Below, piece by piece: positions 30,194 through 41,555 of a DNA stretch of 41,754 nucleotides. Source of the DNA: a candidate division WOR-3 bacterium. Its GTDB lineage: Bacteria; Hydrothermota; Tepidihabitantia; SM23-42. The notes under the pieces were generated by a model. The model had not been told where the DNA came from. It made no database searches and was given only the letters and a program-made list of their open reading frames with translations. Every line of letters starts with the position of its first letter. The stretch's first letter is position 1. The DNA is taken from the NCBI GenBank assembly GCA_011052815.1, contig DRIG01000030.1, positions 1 through 41,754 on the forward strand. The letters run 5' to 3'. A program made the translations under genes and the position numbers.

Positions 30194-31285
30194 ATGAAGG
30201 TATTGATAATGCCCGTGCCGATCGGTGCAGGCCATATCAAAGCGGCGAAGGCACTCAAACAGGCGCTCGTGGCTCTGGCACCGGAAATCGAGGTGCGGTT
30301 TGAAGATTGTTTTGACTGGGTTTATCCTTTATACGGCACTGCTTACAGGAAGATATACGACTACGCCCAGAAAAAGGGGAGGGCGCTGTTGAAATTTCTG
30401 TATCGGGGCGTGGGCATAAAGAGCGGTTCTTCGGAATTCCTCTATCGAATACATAAAGTTCTCGCCCACAAAATCAGGACACTGTTGAAAGAATATTCTC
30501 CTGATTATGTACTCTGCACCCATTTCTCGCCGGGATATTTCGCCGCCCTGTATAAGAAAGAATATCTTTATAAGATAGGTATCGTGGTGACCGACTATTA
30601 TGTGCATCCTCACTGGAGCAATAAGGAGATCGACCATTATTTCATCCCCCATGAATTTTTGATTGAACAGGTTGTTTCCTACGGAGCTCAGAGAGAGAAT
30701 ATTTTTCCGTTCGGTATTCCCGTCGCCCTGGAACTCGAAGGAGAGATCGACAAGGATGCGGCGCGTAAGAGATTCGGGCTGTCGAAGAGCCGAATATCCG
30801 CCACCGTGATGGGAAGCAGGGTTTTCGGCGGAGAATGGTTTGAGATTGTAAAGGAGATCGTCGACTTTGATTACGACCTTCTCGTCCTGTGCGGAGAGAA
30901 TCAGGAGGTTATGGAGAGAATAAAGGCGTTGAAGGGGAGAGCGAGATTGAGCACCTATGGTATGGTGAAAGACATCCATGAGTTGATTGCAGTGACCGAC
31001 ATCCTCATCACCAAAGCCGGCGGCATTACAACGACCGAGGCGATCAAGGCGGGTCCCTGTTTGCTCTTTGCCAATTCAATCGTCGGGCTTGAGGACAAGA
31101 ACGAGGACTTTCTGATCAAACACGGAGCGGCTCTGCGCCTCACCCGTGAAAATGCAAAGGCAACGGTCGGCGGTCTGTTAAAAGACCCTGAAAAGATGGC
31201 GGGAATGAGGCGTGCGATTAAAAAATTACGGAAAAAAGACTCGGCTGCGAATATCGCGAGGGTGATCCTCGACAGTATAAAATGA
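30194..31285 (+). CDS. GT28-type glycosyltransferase, MGDG synthase/processive diacylglycerol glucosyltransferase-like
   Basis: A 363-aa GT-B glycosyltransferase. The N-terminal domain has the family opening MPVPIGAGHIKAAKALKQAL and the MGDG-synthase block SPDYVLCTHFSPGYFAAL. The C-terminal domain carries the nucleotide-sugar site VTDILITKAGGITTTEAIKAG, with a conserved Lys/Gly-Gly and Glu. Relatives add galactose or glucose to diacylglycerol at the inner membrane; the sugar and acceptor are not decidable here. The TGA stop overlaps the ATG of the zincin gene (ATGA). Confidence 0.85.
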   Translation: MKVLIMPVPIGAGHIKAAKALKQALVALAPEIEVRFEDCFDWVYPLYGTAYRKIYDYAQKKGRALLKFLYRGVGIKSGSSEFLYRIHKVLAHKIRTLLKEYSPDYVLCTHFSPGYFAALYKKEYLYKIGIVVTDYYVHPHWSNKEIDHYFIPHEFLIEQVVSYGAQRENIFPFGIPVALELEGEIDKDAARKRFGLSKSRISATVMGSRVFGGEWFEIVKEIVDFDYDLLVLCGENQEVMERIKALKGRARLSTYGMVKDIHELIAVTDILITKAGGITTTEAIKAGPCLLFANSIVGLEDKNEDFLIKHGAALRLTRENAKATVGGLLKDPEKMAGMRRAIKKLRKKDSAANIARVILDSIK

Positions 31286-31617
31286 ATCGGGAGATATTCG
31301 AAAAGGTCGTCATAGACGTTATAGATTCCCTGCCTCGGTTTCTGCGTGAAAAACTGGAGAACCTGGAGATCGTGATTGAAGACGAGTATATCGAAAAGAA
31401 GTCCCTCCTCGGTCTGTACCAGGGGGTTCCTCTCAAGAAGAGGGGTGCGTGGTATGGAAACGTGCTTCCGGACAAGATCATTTTGTTCAAGAACAATATC
31501 GAGCGTCTGAGCCGTAATGAAGATGAATTGAAGGAGTGGATTCGCAGGGTCGTGATACACGAGATCGGTCATTATTTCGGTTTCGGTGAGGAAGAATTGA
31601 GAAAAGCCGGGTATTAG
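31282..31617 (+). CDS. minimal zincin-type metallopeptidase (Zincin_1 / PF06262-like)
   Basis: A 111-aa protein with the zinc motif HEIGH (H93, E94, H97) followed by YFGFGEEEL, the layout of the small zincin-like family widespread in bacteria whose substrates are unknown. LGLYQGVPLKKRG and KIILFKNNIER also fit that family. It is translationally coupled to the glycosyltransferase by a 4-bp overlap, with no promoter of its own. The stop lies one base from the stop of the convergent cyclase-like gene. Confidence 0.85.
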   Translation: MNREIFEKVVIDVIDSLPRFLREKLENLEIVIEDEYIEKKSLLGLYQGVPLKKRGAWYGNVLPDKIILFKNNIERLSRNEDELKEWIRRVVIHEIGHYFGFGEEELRKAGY

Positions 31618-31618
31618 T

Positions 31619-34600
31619 CTACATCTTTGTCTCTTTTTTAAATTCTGCAAATTCCCGATACAACCGACGGTCGAGGAACCGTCTGCGGTCGTCTTCTTCT
31701 TTCAAATACTGCAGAATTTCTTCACGGAGCTGCATCGCCTTTGTAAAGAAATTTCTTGTTTCGTCAGGCACTCCCAGATAATAATTGATTCTGCTTAGGT
31801 AAAAATAGAGCTGAAACTTTGTCTCTTTGGCGCCCCTTAATTTTTCAACCCGTTCCTTGATCTTCATCAGGATCTCTTTTGCATCGTTCAGGTACGTTAT
31901 CAAAAGTTTTTTATTGGTAAGCGCCTGTGCGATTCTTATCTCCGCCTTTAAAAGGGCGGCGTCGATCTGCAACCCGTGAAATTCACTTCCTTTTATTCGA
32001 TTGATGATCTCTTCACACATCGTATAGGCTTTTTCATATTCTCTCTGGTGGTGGAAGAGTCGGGCGCGGCTCAGTTCGACATTCAACTCCATTATCCTGC
32101 TGCCGAGTTCCTTGAAGATTGTAACCGCCCTGTCGAAATATTCTTTCGCCGCGGTGAAATCTTCTTTCACAAGTTTCAACATCCCGAGTCCCCAGGTTCC
32201 ATAGCCATTACCCAGGCGGTTGTTGATCTGTTTATTGATCGCCATATATCTTTCAAAATATTCCTCTGCCTTTTGATAATCACCGAGCTGAAAATAGGTG
32301 TCGCCGATATTGTAAATCGAGATCGCCTGGGAAAGCAGGTTTCCGGTCTTCACCGCAACCTGAAGTGATTTCTCGAGGTAATCGAGGGCGGCGAAGTGGT
32401 CCCCTTTGTCGGAATAATATCCGCAGATGTTGTTGTATATGACACTCTGACCCATGATATCGTCGATTATTTCATATAGTTTCAGCGCCTTGCTATAGTA
32501 TTTAAAGGATTCCTCACGTTCACCTGTGTGGCTGTATATCGCTGCGAGTATGTTGTACGCCCTGGCGGTGATCTTGCGTGCCTTCATATCCACTGCATCT
32601 TTGATTTCGGTGAGCAGTTCATCAAGCAGGGAGAGCGCCTTCTGATAATCACCCTGGAGATAGTATACCCATGCGATGCCTATTTGAATCTGCGCCCTGT
32701 CGATCTTCGATTCATCGGATATCTTTTCAAGGGCGCGGTTGTAGTATTCGATTGCTCTGGGGTAATCACTGATTTTCTGGTAACTGTCCGCGATGGCGGC
32801 GTTGATGTCCGCCTCCTGTTTTCGCACAGTACAATATTTCAACGCCTGATTGAAGAACTCAAACGCCTCTTCATTCCGGCCGATGAGGGCGTGTATCTTA
32901 CCCAGGTTATTCAGGACCTCCCTTTTTCGGTCTTCGTTGTCCCGGAACTTGTTCAGTTCTTCAAGCACCGCCTGATAAAAGAGGATCGCCTCCTGATTGG
33001 CATAGCGTTTGCGGGCGTTCTCCGCTGCTTTTATACCGTATTCGATCGTCTTTTCGTAGTCTCCCGCCTGGCTGTAGTGCTCAAAGAGCACCTCGCAGAA
33101 TTCAGACAGGCGGTCTTTATAAAGAGACTCGATCGTCTCGGCGACTTTTCGATGGAGTGATTTTCTTCTCTTTTCCGGAATACCGGTGTAGAGCACCTCA
33201 CGCACCAGCGAGTGGTTGAACGAATAGTCTTCGCCGTTGTCGGTCGTGATGAACCCAAGTTCGGTGATTTCTTCTATCAGTTCATCGAATGTTTCCCACT
33301 CTTCAGTGAAGAAGTTCACCACTTTCTTTGAAAAGTTCCGTCCGGCGACCGCGATCTCCTCAAGAATATTCTTCAACTGCGGATTCAGGGTGTCGCAGCG
33401 GCTCCTTATGATTGCATCGATATTATAGGGGATGGCGAAGTCTATCTCCTGTTCTGAGGCGATCCATTCTCTTCCCCGCCTCAGCAGTTTTTTCTTCGCG
33501 ATCAGCAGCTTGATTATCTCTTCAAGGAAGAATGGATTTCCGTCCGCTTTCTCGACTATGTCGTTCAGTAAAGTTCCGGGAAGTTTGGGGATCTTCAGCA
33601 GATTTTCGGATATCTGCTTTGTCTTTTCTTTACTCAGGCGCATCAAATTCATTTCATGGATCTTGCGCTGTTTTTTGATCTTTTCTTTAATCCGCCAGAA
33701 CGGTTTTTCCTTATCCGGCCTCGAGAGAAGAATCAGCAGGGCGTTCATATCTGCAGCCGTTTCTAGGAAGAATTCCAGTGCCTCGAGCGTCGGCGAATCG
33801 GCGAGGTAGAGGTCATCAATGACATAGACACAGGATGCTTTTCGGGCGTAGTTTTTTAAAAGTGTGGTGACGGCGACCTGGGTCCGCAGCTTGAGTTCTT
33901 CAGGTTTAAGGTATTCTATTTTCTCTTGATATTTTTCTCCCAGTCTGATGTTAAAGAGGTTCGCAATACTCGCATACAGTTCATCGGCGTCCTCTGGAGC
34001 GAGGAGATTTATCTGTTTGAGCAGTTTCTCTGTGATCTTCTTTTCGCTGTCAGAACTTTCAATACCGCAGATCTGTTTTATTATTTCAATGAAAGGAAGA
34101 TAGATCGCTTCTTTATAGGGCGAGCAATAACCGCTGCACCAGTTTATCACCTTTGCCCGTTCCAGTGAGATCGACAGGGAATAGGTGAACAACTCTTCAA
34201 TGAGTCTTGATTTACCGACACCGGCTTCTCCTATAATGATTACGGTATTGCCGATATTGTTCATTACATCCTCAAGATATTTTTTGAGAATCTTCAGTTC
34301 CTCATCCCTGCCGACCAGGGGCGACTTCAGCCCTTCGATGCCGCGCCGTCGGACAAACCCGCTCTTCTGACCCGTCACCTCGAATACTCTGAGCGGTTCG
34401 GTCAATCCCTGTGCCTGGATTTCAAAACCCTCGGAAAAGATAAAGACGGGTTTTGTAATTTGATGGATTTCTTCACTCACCAGGATCTGATCAGGCTCTG
34501 CTCTTTCCATGATACGTGCCGCGATATTGACCGCATCACCCATCACCGTATATTCCTTTTTGATCTCTGAACCGACGTCACCAGCATACACCCTTCCGAG

Positions 34601-34930
34601 ATTCATTCCGGCACTCATCCGCAGCGAAGATTTATTCTTTTCATTGTATGCCGCAAGTTTCTTTTTAAAGAGAAGGGCTGATTTTATCGCCCTTTCCGGG
34701 TCCTCTTCATGGGCTACAGGTACCCCGAAGGTCGCCATAAATATCTTTCCTTCGTGTTTATCGATATGGCCCTCATACAACTTGATCGTCTCTTCGTGGA
34801 GTCCGGCGAGGTCTTTGATGATATTGGCGTACTCTTCAGGCTCCAGGGGTTCACCTTCTCGTTCGATGCCATGAATCTTTATAAACTGAATGACACAGTA
34901 CTTTATTTCTGATTTTATCGAACCGTTCAT
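31619..34930 (-). CDS. cyclase-homology/AAA-ATPase/TPR protein 3 (C2-like cyclase domain)
   Basis: A 1103-aa cytoplasmic protein. Residues about 10-185 are a class III nucleotide-cyclase homology domain; about 205-480 a STAND/AAA-type ATPase with Walker A GEAGVGKS (234-241) and Walker B CVYVIDDLYLAD; about 480-640 a winged-helix/connector; and from about 640 at least eight TPR repeats such as FEFFNQALKYC and ALDYLEKSLQVAVKTGN. In the cyclase domain the two metal Asp positions are K18 and K62, so it cannot catalyse alone. N135 and R139 (MGDAVNIAARI) are kept, with Thr128 at the adenine-recognition position as in class IIIb cyclases. It has its own promoter. It is a paralogue of the next gene, with long stretches nearly identical. 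Confidence 0.88.
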   Translation of the reverse strand: MNGSIKSEIKYCVIQFIKIHGIEREGEPLEPEEYANIIKDLAGLHEETIKLYEGHIDKHEGKIFMATFGVPVAHEEDPERAIKSALLFKKKLAAYNEKNKSSLRMSAGMNLGRVYAGDVGSEIKKEYTVMGDAVNIAARIMERAEPDQILVSEEIHQITKPVFIFSEGFEIQAQGLTEPLRVFEVTGQKSGFVRRRGIEGLKSPLVGRDEELKILKKYLEDVMNNIGNTVIIIGEAGVGKSRLIEELFTYSLSISLERAKVINWCSGYCSPYKEAIYLPFIEIIKQICGIESSDSEKKITEKLLKQINLLAPEDADELYASIANLFNIRLGEKYQEKIEYLKPEELKLRTQVAVTTLLKNYARKASCVYVIDDLYLADSPTLEALEFFLETAADMNALLILLSRPDKEKPFWRIKEKIKKQRKIHEMNLMRLSKEKTKQISENLLKIPKLPGTLLNDIVEKADGNPFFLEEIIKLLIAKKKLLRRGREWIASEQEIDFAIPYNIDAIIRSRCDTLNPQLKNILEEIAVAGRNFSKKVVNFFTEEWETFDELIEEITELGFITTDNGEDYSFNHSLVREVLYTGIPEKRRKSLHRKVAETIESLYKDRLSEFCEVLFEHYSQAGDYEKTIEYGIKAAENARKRYANQEAILFYQAVLEELNKFRDNEDRKREVLNNLGKIHALIGRNEEAFEFFNQALKYCTVRKQEADINAAIADSYQKISDYPRAIEYYNRALEKISDESKIDRAQIQIGIAWVYYLQGDYQKALSLLDELLTEIKDAVDMKARKITARAYNILAAIYSHTGEREESFKYYSKALKLYEIIDDIMGQSVIYNNICGYYSDKGDHFAALDYLEKSLQVAVKTGNLLSQAISIYNIGDTYFQLGDYQKAEEYFERYMAINKQINNRLGNGYGTWGLGMLKLVKEDFTAAKEYFDRAVTIFKELGSRIMELNVELSRARLFHHQREYEKAYTMCEEIINRIKGSEFHGLQIDAALLKAEIRIAQALTNKKLLITYLNDAKEILMKIKERVEKLRGAKETKFQLYFYLSRINYYLGVPDETRNFFTKAMQLREEILQYLKEEDDRRRFLDRRLYREFAEFKKETKM

Positions 34931-34966
34931 GATATTCTTCCTCTGATGAAATTTCAGATGAACAAT

Positions 34967-34994
34967 ATTTTATCCAAAAGAAGTGCGGAGTCAA
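34967..34994 (-). promoter_or_regulatory. promoter of cyclase-like gene 3
   Basis: On the minus strand, TTGACT (34989-34994) and TAAAAT (34967-34972) with 16 nt between. Leader about 31 nt with GAGGAAG before the ATG. Confidence 0.65.
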
Positions 34995-35024
34995 GCATCC
35001 TGAAATTTAAAAGGTGATGATTTC

Positions 35025-38000
35025 TCAGCTGACTTTTATCTCTTTACAGAAATTTTCAAACTCCCGGTACAATCTGCGGTTGAGGAGTTTTCTCTTCGCC
35101 TCATCACCTTCCATGAATTCCATCATTTTTTCTTTGACTCCGACGGCGTCTTTATGAAATTTCATCGTTTCCGCGGGCAGGCCCAGTTGATAATGGATAC
35201 GGCACAGATGGAAATAGACCTGGAATTTTGTTTCCAGACTCGCTCCGTATTTATCGATTGTATCATTCAATTCATTCAGAAGCGTCTTTGCATCCTGCAG
35301 ATATGTGACAGCCAGTTTTTTGTTCCCGGCGGCTTGAGCGAGTCTGATCTTCACCTGGGTGATTTTGACTTCGTTCATCATATCATAATCCTTTATCTTC
35401 TTGGCGATCAACATCGTATTTTCAGACAACTGCCAGGCTTTTTCAAATTCTTTCTGATAAAGGTACAGCTCAGCGATACTCGTCATTACGGCGATCTGCC
35501 ACATCTTGCTACCTATTTTATTGAAGAGGGAGAGGGCGGTGTTGTAATACTGTTCCGCTTTTTTCAGGTCGTCCTTTTCCATGGCGAGCAGTCCCAGACC
35601 CCAGGAATTATATCCGACGCCGAGGTTGTTGTTGATCTTCTTCGCTATCTCCATACTCTGGAAGTAATTCTGCTCCGCCATTTCGAAATCACCGATCTGG
35701 TAGTAGGTGTCTCCGGTGTTGTAATAGACGATCACCTGACCGAGAAGGTTACCGGTTGCGATGTCGATCTCTAAGGATTTGCGGAGATATTCAAGGGCGC
35801 TCTGATAATCACCGAGACTTGTGTAGTAGTCGCACAGGTTGTTGTAGATCGCACCCTGGCCGTGCCTGTCTTCGATGATTTCATATAATTTCAGCGCCTT
35901 CTTATAATGTTCAAAAGATTTCTGTTTTTCACCCAGTGCATAGTATGCCGACCCGAAACGGTTGTAAATCCGCGCCTGGATCTTTCGGATCTCCACGGTC
36001 GCCGAGTCACCGAGCAGCGTCAATGCCTTTTCGAGCAATCTGCAGCATTTCATGTAGTCGCCTCTTTCATAGTGGATTCGTGCGATGCCTGTTTCAATGG
36101 CAGCCCTTTCGGTTATTGAATCATCGTCGAGCAGATTCATCGCCTTGTTATATGACTCGATTGCTTTATCGTATTCACTGATATTTTCATAGACATCCGC
36201 GATCGACGTATGGATCTTTGCTTCGTTTTTCGGGTTATCACAGTATTTCAGCGCCTGGTTGAAGAACTCAAAGGCGTCTTCATTCTGTCCGATGAGGGCG
36301 TGTATTTCGCCCAGGTTCTTCAGGATCTCCCTTTTTTGGTCTTCGTTGTCCCGGAAATTATTCAACTCTTTAAGCACCGCCAGATAAAAGAGGATTGCTT
36401 CATGGTTGGCATAGCGTTTGCGGGCGTTCTCCGCTGCTTTTGTGCCGTATTCGATCGTCTTTTCGTAGTCTCCTGCCTGGCTGTAGTGTTCGAATAGTAT
36501 CTCGAAAAATTCAGGGAGGCGGTCTTTATACAGGGTCTCGATCGTCTCGGCGATTTTAAGATGAAGATTTCTCTTTCTCTTCTCCGGAATACCGCCGTAG
36601 ATGATCTCCCTGACCAGTGCATGATTGAAGAAGAAATCTTCGTCGTTGCTGGTCGAGACGAAATCGAGTTCTTTTGTTTCTTTGATTAATTCGTCGATAG
36701 TTTCCCAGTGGACGCTGAATGCACTCAGGATTTTTTTGGAAAAATTTCTGCCGACCACCGACATCTCTTCCAGCACCGTCTTCAGTTCGCCGCTCAGGGT
36801 GTCGAATCGATTTCGAATCACCGCCTCGATTGTATAGGGAATGTGGAAATCGACGTTCGACTCGGCGGCGCACCACTTTCCTTCTTTCTTGAACAAAATC
36901 CCTTCGGCGATCAGGAGCTTGATGATTTCTTCTAAGAAAAAAGGATTTCCGTCCGCTTTTTTTATCACCTCATTCAACAAAGAAGCCGGTAACCCCGGAG
37001 TTCGAAGCAGATTTTCGGATATTTTTCTCGTGTCATTACGGCTGAGGCGTTGGACATTGATTTCGTGGATGGTCTGACTGTCGCGGAGTTCTTCAAGGAT
37101 TTTCCAGAATGGTTTGCTCTTATCGGTCCTCGTTATCAAAAAGACGAGCATCGGGATATCTTTATTGGTTTCAAGAAAGAATTTGATCGCTTCCAGGGTC
37201 GCCATATCGGCGAGATAGAGATCGTCTATAACATAAACACAGGGAGCCTTCAGTGCGAAGTTCTGCAACAGGGTGGCGACGGCGAGATGGGTCTGCAACT
37301 GGAGCACCTGAGGTTCCAGATATTTGATTTTCGTTTCATAACGCGAGTCCAATCTGATATTGAAGATATTGGCGATATAGGGATATATTTCATCTGCCCG
37401 TTCACCGGCGAGATTATCGATTGTTTTGAGCAGTTTTTCGGTTATACTCTTTTCACTGTTCTTGCTGTCGATTCCGCAGATCTGTTTTATTATTTCAATG
37501 AAAGGAAGATAGATCGCCTCTTTATAGGGCGAGCAGCACCCGCTGCACCAGTTTATCACCTTTGCCCGCTCCAGTGAGATCGACAGGGAATGTGTAAAGA
37601 GTTCTTCGATGAGTCTTGATTTACCCACACCGGCTTCACCGGTGATGACCACTGTGCTCTTTGAACCCTTGAGAAGTTTATCCAGGAACTCCTTCAATAC
37701 ATTGAAGATCTCGGTTCGGCCTACAAGCGGAGACTTCAGCCCTTCGATGCCGCGCCGTCTGACAAAGCCCGCCTGCTGATTGAGTACTGGAAAGAGATTG
37801 ATTTTTTTGTCATAACCACGGGGCTGGAATTCCATCATCTCCGCGAACTGGAACACGGGTTTTGTAATCCGGTGGATCTCTTCGCTCACCAGGATCTGAC
37901 CGTCGTCCGCATATTCCATGATGCGTGCCGCGATATTGACCGCATCACCCATCACCGTATATTCCTTTTTGATCTCTGAACCGACGCTTCCCGCATAAAC

Positions 38001-38339
38001 CTTACCGACGTTTATCCCCGCTTTTATGGTCAGGGCGGTGTCGTTTTTTTCATTGTATTCTGCAATCCTTTTTTTAAAAAGAAGGGCTGATTTTATCGCC
38101 CTTTCCGGGTCCTCTTCATGTGATACAGGCACCCCGAAGGTCGCCATAAATATCTTTCCCTCGTGTTTGTCGATATGGCCCTCATACAACCGGACTGTTT
38201 CGTCATAGAGTGATGTTATCTCCTTTATCCGATTGGCGTACTCTTCAGGCTCCAGCTCTTCGCCTTCTCTGTTTATCCCTCTTATCTCCACGAACTGGAT
38301 GACCGAAGGTTTTATCTCTGATTTCTCAATGCTTCCCAT
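35025..38339 (-). CDS. cyclase-homology/AAA-ATPase/TPR protein 2 (C2-like cyclase domain)
   Basis: A 1104-aa paralogue of the protein encoded next to it, with the same order: cyclase-homology domain (about 10-185), ATPase with Walker A GEAGVGKS (234-241) and Walker B CVYVIDDLYLAD, connector, then a TPR array (about 640-1075). In the cyclase domain the first metal Asp is E18 and the second is K62, while the transition-state pair N135/R139 (MGDAVNIAARI) is intact. The ATG at 38339 lies inside the 3' end of the preceding gene, overlapping it by 28 bp, so these two are made from one mRNA. It is likely an oligomeric signalling ATPase that pairs with another cyclase half. Confidence 0.88.
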   Translation of the reverse strand: MGSIEKSEIKPSVIQFVEIRGINREGEELEPEEYANRIKEITSLYDETVRLYEGHIDKHEGKIFMATFGVPVSHEEDPERAIKSALLFKKRIAEYNEKNDTALTIKAGINVGKVYAGSVGSEIKKEYTVMGDAVNIAARIMEYADDGQILVSEEIHRITKPVFQFAEMMEFQPRGYDKKINLFPVLNQQAGFVRRRGIEGLKSPLVGRTEIFNVLKEFLDKLLKGSKSTVVITGEAGVGKSRLIEELFTHSLSISLERAKVINWCSGCCSPYKEAIYLPFIEIIKQICGIDSKNSEKSITEKLLKTIDNLAGERADEIYPYIANIFNIRLDSRYETKIKYLEPQVLQLQTHLAVATLLQNFALKAPCVYVIDDLYLADMATLEAIKFFLETNKDIPMLVFLITRTDKSKPFWKILEELRDSQTIHEINVQRLSRNDTRKISENLLRTPGLPASLLNEVIKKADGNPFFLEEIIKLLIAEGILFKKEGKWCAAESNVDFHIPYTIEAVIRNRFDTLSGELKTVLEEMSVVGRNFSKKILSAFSVHWETIDELIKETKELDFVSTSNDEDFFFNHALVREIIYGGIPEKRKRNLHLKIAETIETLYKDRLPEFFEILFEHYSQAGDYEKTIEYGTKAAENARKRYANHEAILFYLAVLKELNNFRDNEDQKREILKNLGEIHALIGQNEDAFEFFNQALKYCDNPKNEAKIHTSIADVYENISEYDKAIESYNKAMNLLDDDSITERAAIETGIARIHYERGDYMKCCRLLEKALTLLGDSATVEIRKIQARIYNRFGSAYYALGEKQKSFEHYKKALKLYEIIEDRHGQGAIYNNLCDYYTSLGDYQSALEYLRKSLEIDIATGNLLGQVIVYYNTGDTYYQIGDFEMAEQNYFQSMEIAKKINNNLGVGYNSWGLGLLAMEKDDLKKAEQYYNTALSLFNKIGSKMWQIAVMTSIAELYLYQKEFEKAWQLSENTMLIAKKIKDYDMMNEVKITQVKIRLAQAAGNKKLAVTYLQDAKTLLNELNDTIDKYGASLETKFQVYFHLCRIHYQLGLPAETMKFHKDAVGVKEKMMEFMEGDEAKRKLLNRRLYREFENFCKEIKVS

Positions 38340-41300
38340 TCTTCTTTTATCTCTCTATTTTCTTTTCTATTCATGAAAAAGCTCTTACGCAAATTTTCAT
38401 TGCTTATTCGATCTCCTCTTTCCTTTATATCGTTATACGCCTTTTCAAGATACAGATATGCCTCTTTATCTTTATTAAGGGATTTTAATATTTTATAATG
38501 GTTGTAATAGATGATGCTGACGACACCTTCGATTATTTTCTTCTTTTCCAGGGCGTTCACCGCGTTGCGCGACAGTTTGAATGCTTTTTTCAATTCACCC
38601 GTTTTGAAATAGATAAATGCCTGGGTTGATAAGGCGTTGATTTCATAACTTATATTCTTGGCTTTGCGCGCGATGGCGACGGCGTCCTTGGCGAGCTGGA
38701 GTGCTTCTTCCAGACGGTTGTTGAGTACCATTGCGTTGGCGAGTTCGTTTTTGTAAAAAGATATCCAGTCTATGATATTGAGTTCTATACTCAGGCCATG
38801 GGATTTTTGGATGTATTCCAGCGCCTTCTGCGGTTTTCCGAGATGGGCGTAGCTGTCGCCGATATTGCCGTATCGGATTACAATACCGGTCTTGTCACCG
38901 ACCTCTTTGCTGATTTCGAGCGCCTGTTCAAAAAAGGAGAGGGCTTGTTCAAACTTACCGACAGTGGCGAAGTTATTGCCGATGTTGTTCAGGATTATCG
39001 ATTCCCATTTTTTGTTCATTACACTCTTTACGATTTTAAGCGCCTTCTCGCAGTTCTTGATCGATTTGTCATAATCACCGAGAAGTTGATAGAGACTGCC
39101 GATGTTCGTAAGCACCTTTGCCTGGAACATTATATCACCGATGTCCTCGGCGACCTTGAGCGCTTCCTGATAAGCGGCGAGTGAGTCGTTGAATCGATTG
39201 AGATAGTAATAAGCGCTTCCCATATTAGCGATGATGCGTGCCCTGGCGACCGTGTCACCGAGTTTATCATAAAGTTTCAACGCCTGGTTGCAGTATTCCA
39301 GTGATTTTTCCTTTTCACCCATCTTTGTATAGACCAGACTGAAATTCCCCCTTATCTCTGCTTCTTTTCTGATGTCCTTGCTCTTTTGAGCCGATTTAAG
39401 GGCTTGCTGCAGGGAATTCAGCGCCGCCTTGAAATTGGATTGGTTGTAGTATGCAACACCGAGATTCTGGATGACGCGTATATCATCGCTCTTCTTACGG
39501 AGCTCTTCATAAAGCTTTATCGCTTTTTTGTATTGTGAGGTTTTCATCAAGTACCGACCTTTTAAAAGAGCGAGTTCGAGTTTTTCCGTGTCGTTTGCAT
39601 CTTTCGCCATTAAACTTTCAAGCCGTTCAATGGCGCTGCGTTCTTCTTCGCACATCCCGAGTAGGTCAAGAAGGTCCACCTGCTCTTTGAGAATACGATA
39701 TTCGGCTTTGATATTGGTCTGTCGGCAGAGCTGCAGGGCTTCATTGTACGCCTCGAGCGCCATCTCATTGGCGTGTATGTCTTTCAGTCGGCGCGCCCAC
39801 TTCAAGACATAATGGAGGGCTAATTCGTAGTCGCCGCTTTCCTTGAAATGATAAGCCAGTTTTTTGTCGTTGTCATAGGTGGAAAACCTCTCACGCAGTA
39901 TCGAAGCGATTTTGCGATGCAGCGTCTTTCGCACGCTCTTGGGCAGCCGGCTGCAGATCTCTTCTCTGAGAAACGGATTTTTAAAAGAGAGTTCACCGTC
40001 ATTCGAATTCAACAGGTCGTTTCTCACCCCGTAATCCACGGTCTCTTCATAATTGGGAGCGGCGGTCTTCAGGAATTCTTTTTCAATGGTATAGCCGTAG
40101 ACCGCACCGAGCGACAGGGTATTGAAGATGCCTACTGGAATGTGGTCGATGAGGTGGTTGAAGACTTCTTTGACCCGATAGGGGATTTTTATCCTCTCCC
40201 GCAGTTTCACGCTGTCCTGCTGGTTCTTTACATAGCGGCATATCTCTGTCGTGAACAGAGGATTGCCGCCGGCGTGGCGGCAGATCTCGTCCAGCAGTTC
40301 CTTTTCAAGTTTGACATCGTCACAGAGGTCTTTGACGATTTTGAACTGGGTCTCTTTATCAAGGGGTGTCAGTTCGAGCACCATCGGTGTGACACCTGTC
40401 GCTGATTTTAATTCATCGACCAGTTTATTGTGCAGATTATGCATTTCAAATATCGTGTAGACATCATATTCATTGATATTGTTTATTAAAAATTTGATGA
40501 AGTCGAAAGAGTTCTTATCGATGCGTTCAAAATACTGAAAGAGTAGGACAAGCGGTTTTATTTTACCTGCGGCGAATATAATTTCACAGAACTGATTAAA
40601 GAGATTGGTTTTGTATGATTCCTCGGTTACCAGCGCTATCTTTTCTTTGATTCCAAAATCCGGTTTCAATTCCATGATGATTTTTAAGATTGATTCGTAA
40701 AACTGCAGGGAACGGGCGGTCAAAAAAGAGGTTTGAAAAAGGTTGAACTTTTTTTCTTCTCTGTTCAATCGGTTGAATGTCTCGTGGATGAATCTGGTCT
40801 TGCCGATCCCCTGGTTTCCCGTTACGATGATCACCTTCTTTTTCTTAAGGATATAATTGCTGAGCGATTCGATCTCTTCTTTTCTGTTGAAAAATTTATT
40901 GGTGTATAATGCCTGCTGTTTTTTCTCGGCGAGCACCCGGAAAAAGACCTTTTCATTCTTTGAGAGCCTTTCGAAATCAAAGAATGTTTTGGTCAACTCA
41001 TAACAATTCAGGTCGATATAAATCTCTCCTGCCGGCGCCGTCTCTTCCAGATAAGAAGCCGCTTCCGTGACATATCCGTATATCTTGTCTTCATCACAGA
41101 TTATTTCACCGCTGGCGACGCCGATATGAACTTCAATGGGATAGGAAAGTCCTCTCACCGCTTCTTTGATTCTCAATGCACTGAGGATCGCCGAATATGC
41201 ATCATATCCTTGTGATTTCGGGAAACCAAAGACAGCCATAACGCGGTCGCCTTCATGGCGTAGTATTGTTCCGTCGTGGACATGGATGATTTTATCGATG

Positions 41301-41416
41301 ATCTTGAAACATTCATTGACGAGTTCGGTGATTTTTTCCGGGCCGAGCGTGGCTGTCAGTTTTGTGAATCCTGTAAGATCAGCGTAGAGGATTGTTGCAA
41401 GGCGATTCTCTCTCAC
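38312..41416 (-). CDS. cyclase-homology/AAA-ATPase/TPR protein 1 (C1-like cyclase domain)
   Basis: A 1034-aa protein. The N-terminal class III cyclase domain (about 4-165) has both metal-binding Asp: D13 (LYADLTGFTKL) and D57 (RHEGDRVMAVFG). The transition-state Asn and Arg are replaced by T117 and S121 (GYVTEAASYLEE). The ATPase domain has Walker A GNQGIGKT (200-207), but the Walker B region reads LVLLFQYFERID without the usual two acidic residues. A TPR array follows from about residue 540 (for example CNQALKLYDKLGD, ALSFFEQALEISKEVGD). The GTG start at 41416 lies seven bases from a -10 box, predicting a leaderless mRNA. The gene overlaps the next by 28 bp. Confidence 0.88.
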   Translation of the reverse strand: MRENRLATILYADLTGFTKLTATLGPEKITELVNECFKIIDKIIHVHDGTILRHEGDRVMAVFGFPKSQGYDAYSAILSALRIKEAVRGLSYPIEVHIGVASGEIICDEDKIYGYVTEAASYLEETAPAGEIYIDLNCYELTKTFFDFERLSKNEKVFFRVLAEKKQQALYTNKFFNRKEEIESLSNYILKKKKVIIVTGNQGIGKTRFIHETFNRLNREEKKFNLFQTSFLTARSLQFYESILKIIMELKPDFGIKEKIALVTEESYKTNLFNQFCEIIFAAGKIKPLVLLFQYFERIDKNSFDFIKFLINNINEYDVYTIFEMHNLHNKLVDELKSATGVTPMVLELTPLDKETQFKIVKDLCDDVKLEKELLDEICRHAGGNPLFTTEICRYVKNQQDSVKLRERIKIPYRVKEVFNHLIDHIPVGIFNTLSLGAVYGYTIEKEFLKTAAPNYEETVDYGVRNDLLNSNDGELSFKNPFLREEICSRLPKSVRKTLHRKIASILRERFSTYDNDKKLAYHFKESGDYELALHYVLKWARRLKDIHANEMALEAYNEALQLCRQTNIKAEYRILKEQVDLLDLLGMCEEERSAIERLESLMAKDANDTEKLELALLKGRYLMKTSQYKKAIKLYEELRKKSDDIRVIQNLGVAYYNQSNFKAALNSLQQALKSAQKSKDIRKEAEIRGNFSLVYTKMGEKEKSLEYCNQALKLYDKLGDTVARARIIANMGSAYYYLNRFNDSLAAYQEALKVAEDIGDIMFQAKVLTNIGSLYQLLGDYDKSIKNCEKALKIVKSVMNKKWESIILNNIGNNFATVGKFEQALSFFEQALEISKEVGDKTGIVIRYGNIGDSYAHLGKPQKALEYIQKSHGLSIELNIIDWISFYKNELANAMVLNNRLEEALQLAKDAVAIARKAKNISYEINALSTQAFIYFKTGELKKAFKLSRNAVNALEKKKIIEGVVSIIYYNHYKILKSLNKDKEAYLYLEKAYNDIKERGDRISNENLRKSFFMNRKENREIKEEWEALRNQR

Positions 41417-41423
41417 AACTATA

Positions 41424-41451
41424 ATTATAACAAAAAAAGAATATTAGTCAA
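41424..41451 (-). promoter_or_regulatory. promoter giving a leaderless mRNA for cyclase-like gene 1
   Basis: On the minus strand, TTGACT (41446-41451) and TATAAT (41424-41429) with a 16-nt spacer, seven bases from the GTG start. Confidence 0.75.
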
Positions 41452-41456
41452 TCTTT

Positions 41457-41555
41457 GCTTCCCTATTTCCATTTCCCCCTTTCTCCCTTTCTCCGTTTCT
41501 CCGTTTCCCCCTTTCCCCCATTCTCCGTTTCTCCCATTCTCCCTTTCCCCTCCGC
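41457..41555. repeat. polypyrimidine tract of imperfect 8-10-bp tandem units
   Basis: About 100 bases are almost pure C and T on the plus strand, built from variants of TTTCTCCC and TTTCTCCG with single purines. It lies between two divergent promoters. Confidence 0.85.

Follow-up and report, generated by a model that had tools for sequence, protein, structure and literature searches.

The division of labour between the C1 and C2 domains of class III cyclases is usually told as a eukaryotic trait; in this account, the class III enzymes of bacteria work as homodimers. In the mammalian membrane adenylyl cyclases (ADCY1-9), the metal half of the active site is in C1 and the Asn/Arg half in C2, both in one membrane-anchored chain without STAND or TPR parts. 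Here, we describe three consecutive genes, P1, P2 and P3, on the minus strand at 31619-41416 of a 41,754-nucleotide stretch of DNA (the window; contig DRIG01000030.1 of assembly GCA_011052815.1) from the 2.39 Mb draft genome of a candidate division WOR-3 bacterium, which appear to share the C1/C2 division between separate giant proteins: the division itself is known, and its occurrence between separate genes of a bacterium is well supported by comparison.

In human soluble adenylyl cyclase (sAC, ADCY10), NTPase and TPR-like regions follow the cyclase domains. The two catalytic domains of sAC, C1 and C2, lie in one chain and build a single competent site (PMC4506562); P1 and P2, in contrast, are separate giant proteins, and both have an NTPase and TPRs of their own. 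Obligate class III heterodimers encoded by two genes are known from soluble guanylyl cyclase (sGC alpha/beta) and chytrid NeoR/RGC, but these are eukaryotic and guanylyl, and RGC1 and RGC2 have, unlike P1 and P2, kept all catalytic residues (PMC8815786). Heterodimeric class III cyclases have been described as a feature of higher eukaryotes (PMC8815786) and we found no description of a bacterial two-gene C1/C2 cyclase in the literature searched, most subscription journals being outside its coverage. P1, P2 and P3 resemble the bacterial cyclase-STAND-TPR proteins (Pfam Guanylate_cyc, AAA_16 and TPR) in domain order and size; those of these proteins that have all six active site residues can act as homodimers, which P1, P2 and P3 cannot by residue content.

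The three adjacent giant proteins of the original prediction were found as open reading frames (ORFs) of 1034, 1104 and 1103 amino acids:

38312..41416, minus strand: P1, 1034 aa; cyclase domain of C1 type carrying the metal half, NTPase that has Walker A and lacks Walker B, TPR
40937..41416, minus strand: P1 cyclase domain, about residues 1-160; D13 and D57 kept, R53, K, E118 and Y122 in place of Lys, Thr, Asn and Arg
40217..40900, minus strand: P1 STAND-like NTPase; Walker A GNQGIGKT (residues 200-207), LLFQYFE without acidic pair at the Walker B position
38312..38339, minus strand: overlap of 28 nt, P1 3' end over P2 start
35025..38339, minus strand: P2, 1104 aa; cyclase domain of C2 type, NTPase in which both Walker motifs are intact, TPR
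37770..38339, minus strand: P2 cyclase domain, residues 1-190; E18 and K62 at the metal positions, K58, T128, N135 and R139 kept
31619..34930, minus strand: P3, 1103 aa; second C2-type protein and paralogue of P2
34361..34930, minus strand: P3 cyclase domain, residues 1-190; K18 and K62 at the metal positions, K58, T128, N135 and R139 kept

Pfam models identify Guanylate_cyc, AAA_16 (a STAND-like NTPase) and TPR in each of the three proteins, and all three match PF00211 above the curated cut-off; the nearest NCBIfam family, TIGR03903, stays far below its cut-off. AlphaFold2 models of the cyclase domains of P1 (pLDDT 88.6) and P2 (pLDDT 78.3) have the class III cyclase fold and match class III structures with TM scores of about 0.7-0.9.

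Six positions were scored, namely the first metal Asp, the adenine-side Lys, the second metal Asp, the adenine-side Thr and the catalytic Asn and Arg. In this order, the residues are D R D K E Y in P1, E K K T N R in P2 and K K K T N R in P3. The metal aspartates D13 and D57 claimed for P1 are thus present, and so are the residues claimed for P2 (E18/K62 with N135/R139) and P3 (K18/K62 with N135/R139). The claim that T117 and S121 stand for the lost Asn and Arg of P1 was off by one: in alignments to CyaB, AC8, human sAC and an in-house model, GYVTEAASYLEE of P1 pairs with GREVNLASRLES, and because there is no gap in this region, the Asn position is E118 and the Arg position Y122. S121, L123 and E124 are invariant among the P1 orthologues and fit the canonical [AS]-R-L-E context. 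At the Asn position, the aligned C1 domains of human sAC and AC8 are acidic as well, and sAC C1 retains the metal aspartates. Beyond what had been claimed, the adenine-side K58 and T128 are present in P2 and P3 and absent from P1 (R53 and K); thus, all six canonical positions are partitioned. By residue content, the set of two Asp, Asn and Arg is complete only when P1 is combined with P2 or P3, and in no homodimer.

This partition is conserved. Orthologues of P1 and P2 are adjacent in six genomes (G001, G002, G008, G023, G025 and G026) from two families of the candidate phylum WOR-3; two of the P1-carrying relatives are listed as candidate division WOR-3 / Candidatus Stahlbacteria. Of nine P1 sequences, all have both metal aspartates, none has the Lys, Thr or Asn and one (G026) has the Arg; the Asn position is Glu or Asp in 9/9. 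The nine P2/P3 sequences present the opposite picture, with the metal Asp pair in none (the first position is E, K, Q or A, the second K, R or T) and all four of Lys, Thr, Asn and Arg in every sequence. A check for random against complementary losses among homologues hence found them strictly complementary, in 9/9 of each type and among orthologues that share 35-60% identity, with no sign of randomness. Since the losses are both complementary and invariant, random decay of the cyclase domains is rejected. The search for neighbouring gene pairs in relatives, also suggested at the outset, found P1 and P2 side by side wherever the locus is whole, as well as other C1/C2 pairs in the phylum (see below). 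The overlap of P1 and P2 measures exactly 28 nt at every one of the seven junctions (window included; two families), even though the proteins share only ~35-57% identity between genera and families.

The NTPase parts differ too. In P1 and the six orthologues that reach this region (7/7), Walker A (GxxGxGK[ST]) is kept and the acidic pair of Walker B is gone (LLFQYFE and similar). The NTPases of P2 and P3 have both Walker motifs, with VIDD as Walker B; in the P2 of G008 the Walker B stretch consists of undetermined bases. This suggests that P1 binds nucleotide without hydrolysing it and that switching resides in the NTPases of P2 and P3.

From these comparisons we infer, with high probability, that P1 and P2 (and likewise P1 and P3) form heterodimers with one adenylyl cyclase site, in other words a two-gene, single-site class III cyclase. 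P1, as the C1 subunit, would give the two metal aspartates, and P2, as the C2 subunit, the adenine-side Lys/Thr and the catalytic Asn/Arg; as neither homodimer can assemble the full site, cyclic AMP (cAMP) would be made only by a P1-P2 or P1-P3 heterodimer. Each subunit would bear its own sensor of a STAND-type NTPase and TPRs, and since only the NTPases of P2 and P3 retain both Walker motifs, turnover of nucleotide in C2 would probably act as the switch, while P1 would bind nucleotide but not hydrolyse it. P3 would be a second C2 whose C-terminal TPRs differ and which may have a promoter of its own, so that one C1 could serve two inputs. Bacterial cyclases and sAC have Lys/Thr as their adenine-type pair, and its presence in P2 and P3 argues for ATP as the substrate. 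Four cyclic nucleotide-binding proteins are encoded in the genome and could be the readers of the cyclase product.

Profile comparisons with known cyclases are largely in line with these assignments: the P1 profile favours C1 over C2 in sAC, AC5, AC8 and AC9 and also scores best on VC1, and the P2/P3 profile scores best on C2 of sAC (287-420), AC5, AC8 and AC9 and on IIC2. Some observations, however, speak against this reading. With human sGC the preference is reversed, the P1 profile preferring beta and the P2/P3 profile alpha, although alpha is the subunit with the metal aspartates; profile support is therefore partial. In genome G011, P1 is truncated and a P2 did not turn up; this remnant (L060:7773-8561, 262 aa) is 96% identical to the P1 of G001 over the first 207 residues and then ends, and, with no P2 found, it is probably decaying. 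For two C1-like proteins from outside the phylum, L111 (Deltaproteobacteria) and L143 (Myxococcota), there is no C2 partner in the available flanks. In favour of the pairing, 30 of the 31 C1-type domains whose cyclase neighbour could be read sit beside a C2-type domain (two of the 30 partial), compared with a neighbour of any half-type for 2 of 30 canonical domains; these counts are descriptive, as they come from a directed sample of related genomes, and their Fisher value does not amount to a true probability.

Several other explanations need to be weighed. As no single chain has an intact residue set, the cyclase domains of P1, P2 and P3 might be dead and act as dimerisation modules that control the STAND and TPR parts, and the same genome does encode a degenerate cyclase-like protein of 195 aa (L072:1490-2077; RKDTTQ, several catalytic positions altered), possibly a pseudo-cyclase. 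Yet dead domains have no reason to keep exactly complementary halves in neighbouring genes, invariant over deep divergence, and we regard this explanation as quite unlikely. Another candidate partner for P1 or P2 are the several canonical class III cyclases of this genome, some of which also have a STAND-TPR layout: class III domains have a common dimer interface and P1 or P2 could be modulators in mixed dimers instead of an obligate mutual pair. The joint presence of P1 and P2 with a constant overlap wherever the locus is whole, while no intact P2 was observed apart from P1, makes such a role very unlikely.

An active heterodimer might also use GTP, CTP or UTP and produce something other than cAMP, for example a Pycsar-like signal. 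Two residues cannot fix the substrate with certainty, and PADLOC PycC models match the cyclase domains, as expected for class III domains generally; the matches are only partial, though, no Pycsar effector gene is present among the flanking genes examined and the adenine-type Lys/Thr pair is found in 9/9 P2/P3 sequences. A different substrate is for these reasons unlikely, and a role in Pycsar defence is unsupported by the same partial matches and flanking genes. Control by bicarbonate, as in sAC, is not supported either, because the Arg position varies in P1: the bicarbonate-binding residues of human sAC are K95 and R176 (PMC12867704) and have no clear match in P1, which carries R53 where the Lys would be and residues that vary around the second position.

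The original prediction had further proposed P2 and P3 as alternative C2 partners of P1, an idea that is anatomically sound. P3 keeps Lys, Thr, Asn and Arg, is preceded by a promoter-like site and has divergent TPRs, but it was found only in the window genome and in G002, which belongs to another genus; in the other genomes it is either missing or lies outside the contig. The two window proteins P2 and P3 share 60% identity overall, with 69-76% in the cyclase domain and the first part of the NTPase and 40% in the last TPR segment, a pattern that fits one shared partner and two inputs. In a tree of full-length proteins, P3 of the window and P3 of G002 fall outside the P2 radiation of the family, although the branch that separates both P3s is weak; the duplication thus looks older than these genera. 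When only the cyclase domains are used, P2 and P3 of the window group together, and at silent sites their identity is elevated over codons 1-300 and 600-700, which is compatible with gene conversion. NeoR, which functions with either RGC1 or RGC2 (PMC8815786), is a precedent for one subunit with two partners. We therefore suggest, tentatively and with less confidence than for the heterodimer itself, that the metal subunit P1 may be exchanged between two C2s with different sensors, the choice of partner setting which input raises cAMP.

C1/C2 neighbour pairs are not restricted to the P1/P2 type. The following pairs were identified:

G000 contig 92, L064:5546-9370, minus strand: second trans-split pair; C2-STAND-TPR protein (1058 aa) and, 3 nt behind it, a C1 domain standing alone (214 aa)
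L203:339-4143, L221:4730-8414 and L220:3-3342: C1/C2 neighbour pairs of two further WOR-3 families (G052; G122/G123)

The stand-alone C1 of the contig 92 type (213-216 aa) is conserved in ~25 genomes of two WOR-3 families, with a C2-STAND-TPR protein read beside it in ~20 of these. Members of this cluster do not conserve the adenine-side Lys, so their substrate may differ; in the large protein, metal position 2 is ambiguous owing to a one-residue insertion, and the large protein of G006 retains the first Asp. The neighbour pairs read KKNTNR (C2) and DKDMEL (C1) in G052, and EKRTNR (C2) and DRDIFK (C1) in G122/G123. A wider scan of named genomes with a P1 profile returned mostly canonical cyclases outside WOR-3. 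In a tree of cyclase domains the C1s and C2s fall in a few clades, but the branches are long, which prevents a firm count of the origins of the split.

The same C1/C2 division is here spread over separate bacterial genes, in several clusters of one phylum and alongside canonical and one-chain forms in the same genome; the coexistence of all three makes the origin and the cost of the split testable, and the naturally separable halves could be used for building two-input cyclases. A one-chain form is encoded on contig 79 of the same genome (L063:1846-4575): a C1-C2-NTPase protein that gives this bacterium an arrangement like that of sAC. A Coatesbacteria contig (L133) carries a similar tandem. 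At L223:1-5485 (minus strand), a stand-alone cyclase-like ORF with both metal Asp is followed by a HEAT-repeat ORF of 921 aa and by a third protein that retains Thr, Asn and Arg and has lost the second Asp, possibly a three-gene split system.

Two promoter-like sites accompany the genes of the window:

41424..41451, minus strand: TTGACT-16-TATAAT, 11/12 consensus matches, ending 7 nt before the P1 start codon
34967..34994, minus strand: TTGACT-16-TAAAAT in the 94-nt spacer between P2 and P3, 5' of P3; a consensus match only and weaker than the P1 site

P1 starts with GTG at 41416, a start supported by the position of TATAAT just 5' of the start codon in several orthologues: the P1 orthologues of G008 and G011 have a similar TTGAC/TATAAT layout upstream and others have TATAAT near the start. 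A transcript from the promoter-like site at 41424..41451 would be leaderless or nearly so, and the site in the spacer makes separate expression of P3 possible. At the other end of the locus, a TTG-start ORF of 231 aa (30955-31650, minus strand) overlaps both the end of P3 and a gene on the opposite strand (30194-31285); it has no Pfam match and is probably not a gene. Upstream of P1, at 41460-41551, lies a G/A-rich tandem repeat with units of 8 bp and 32 bp; the repeat is ~100 bp longer in the overlapping end of contig 24 (L062:3530-3720), a difference due either to variation between strains or to the assembly having broken at the repeat.

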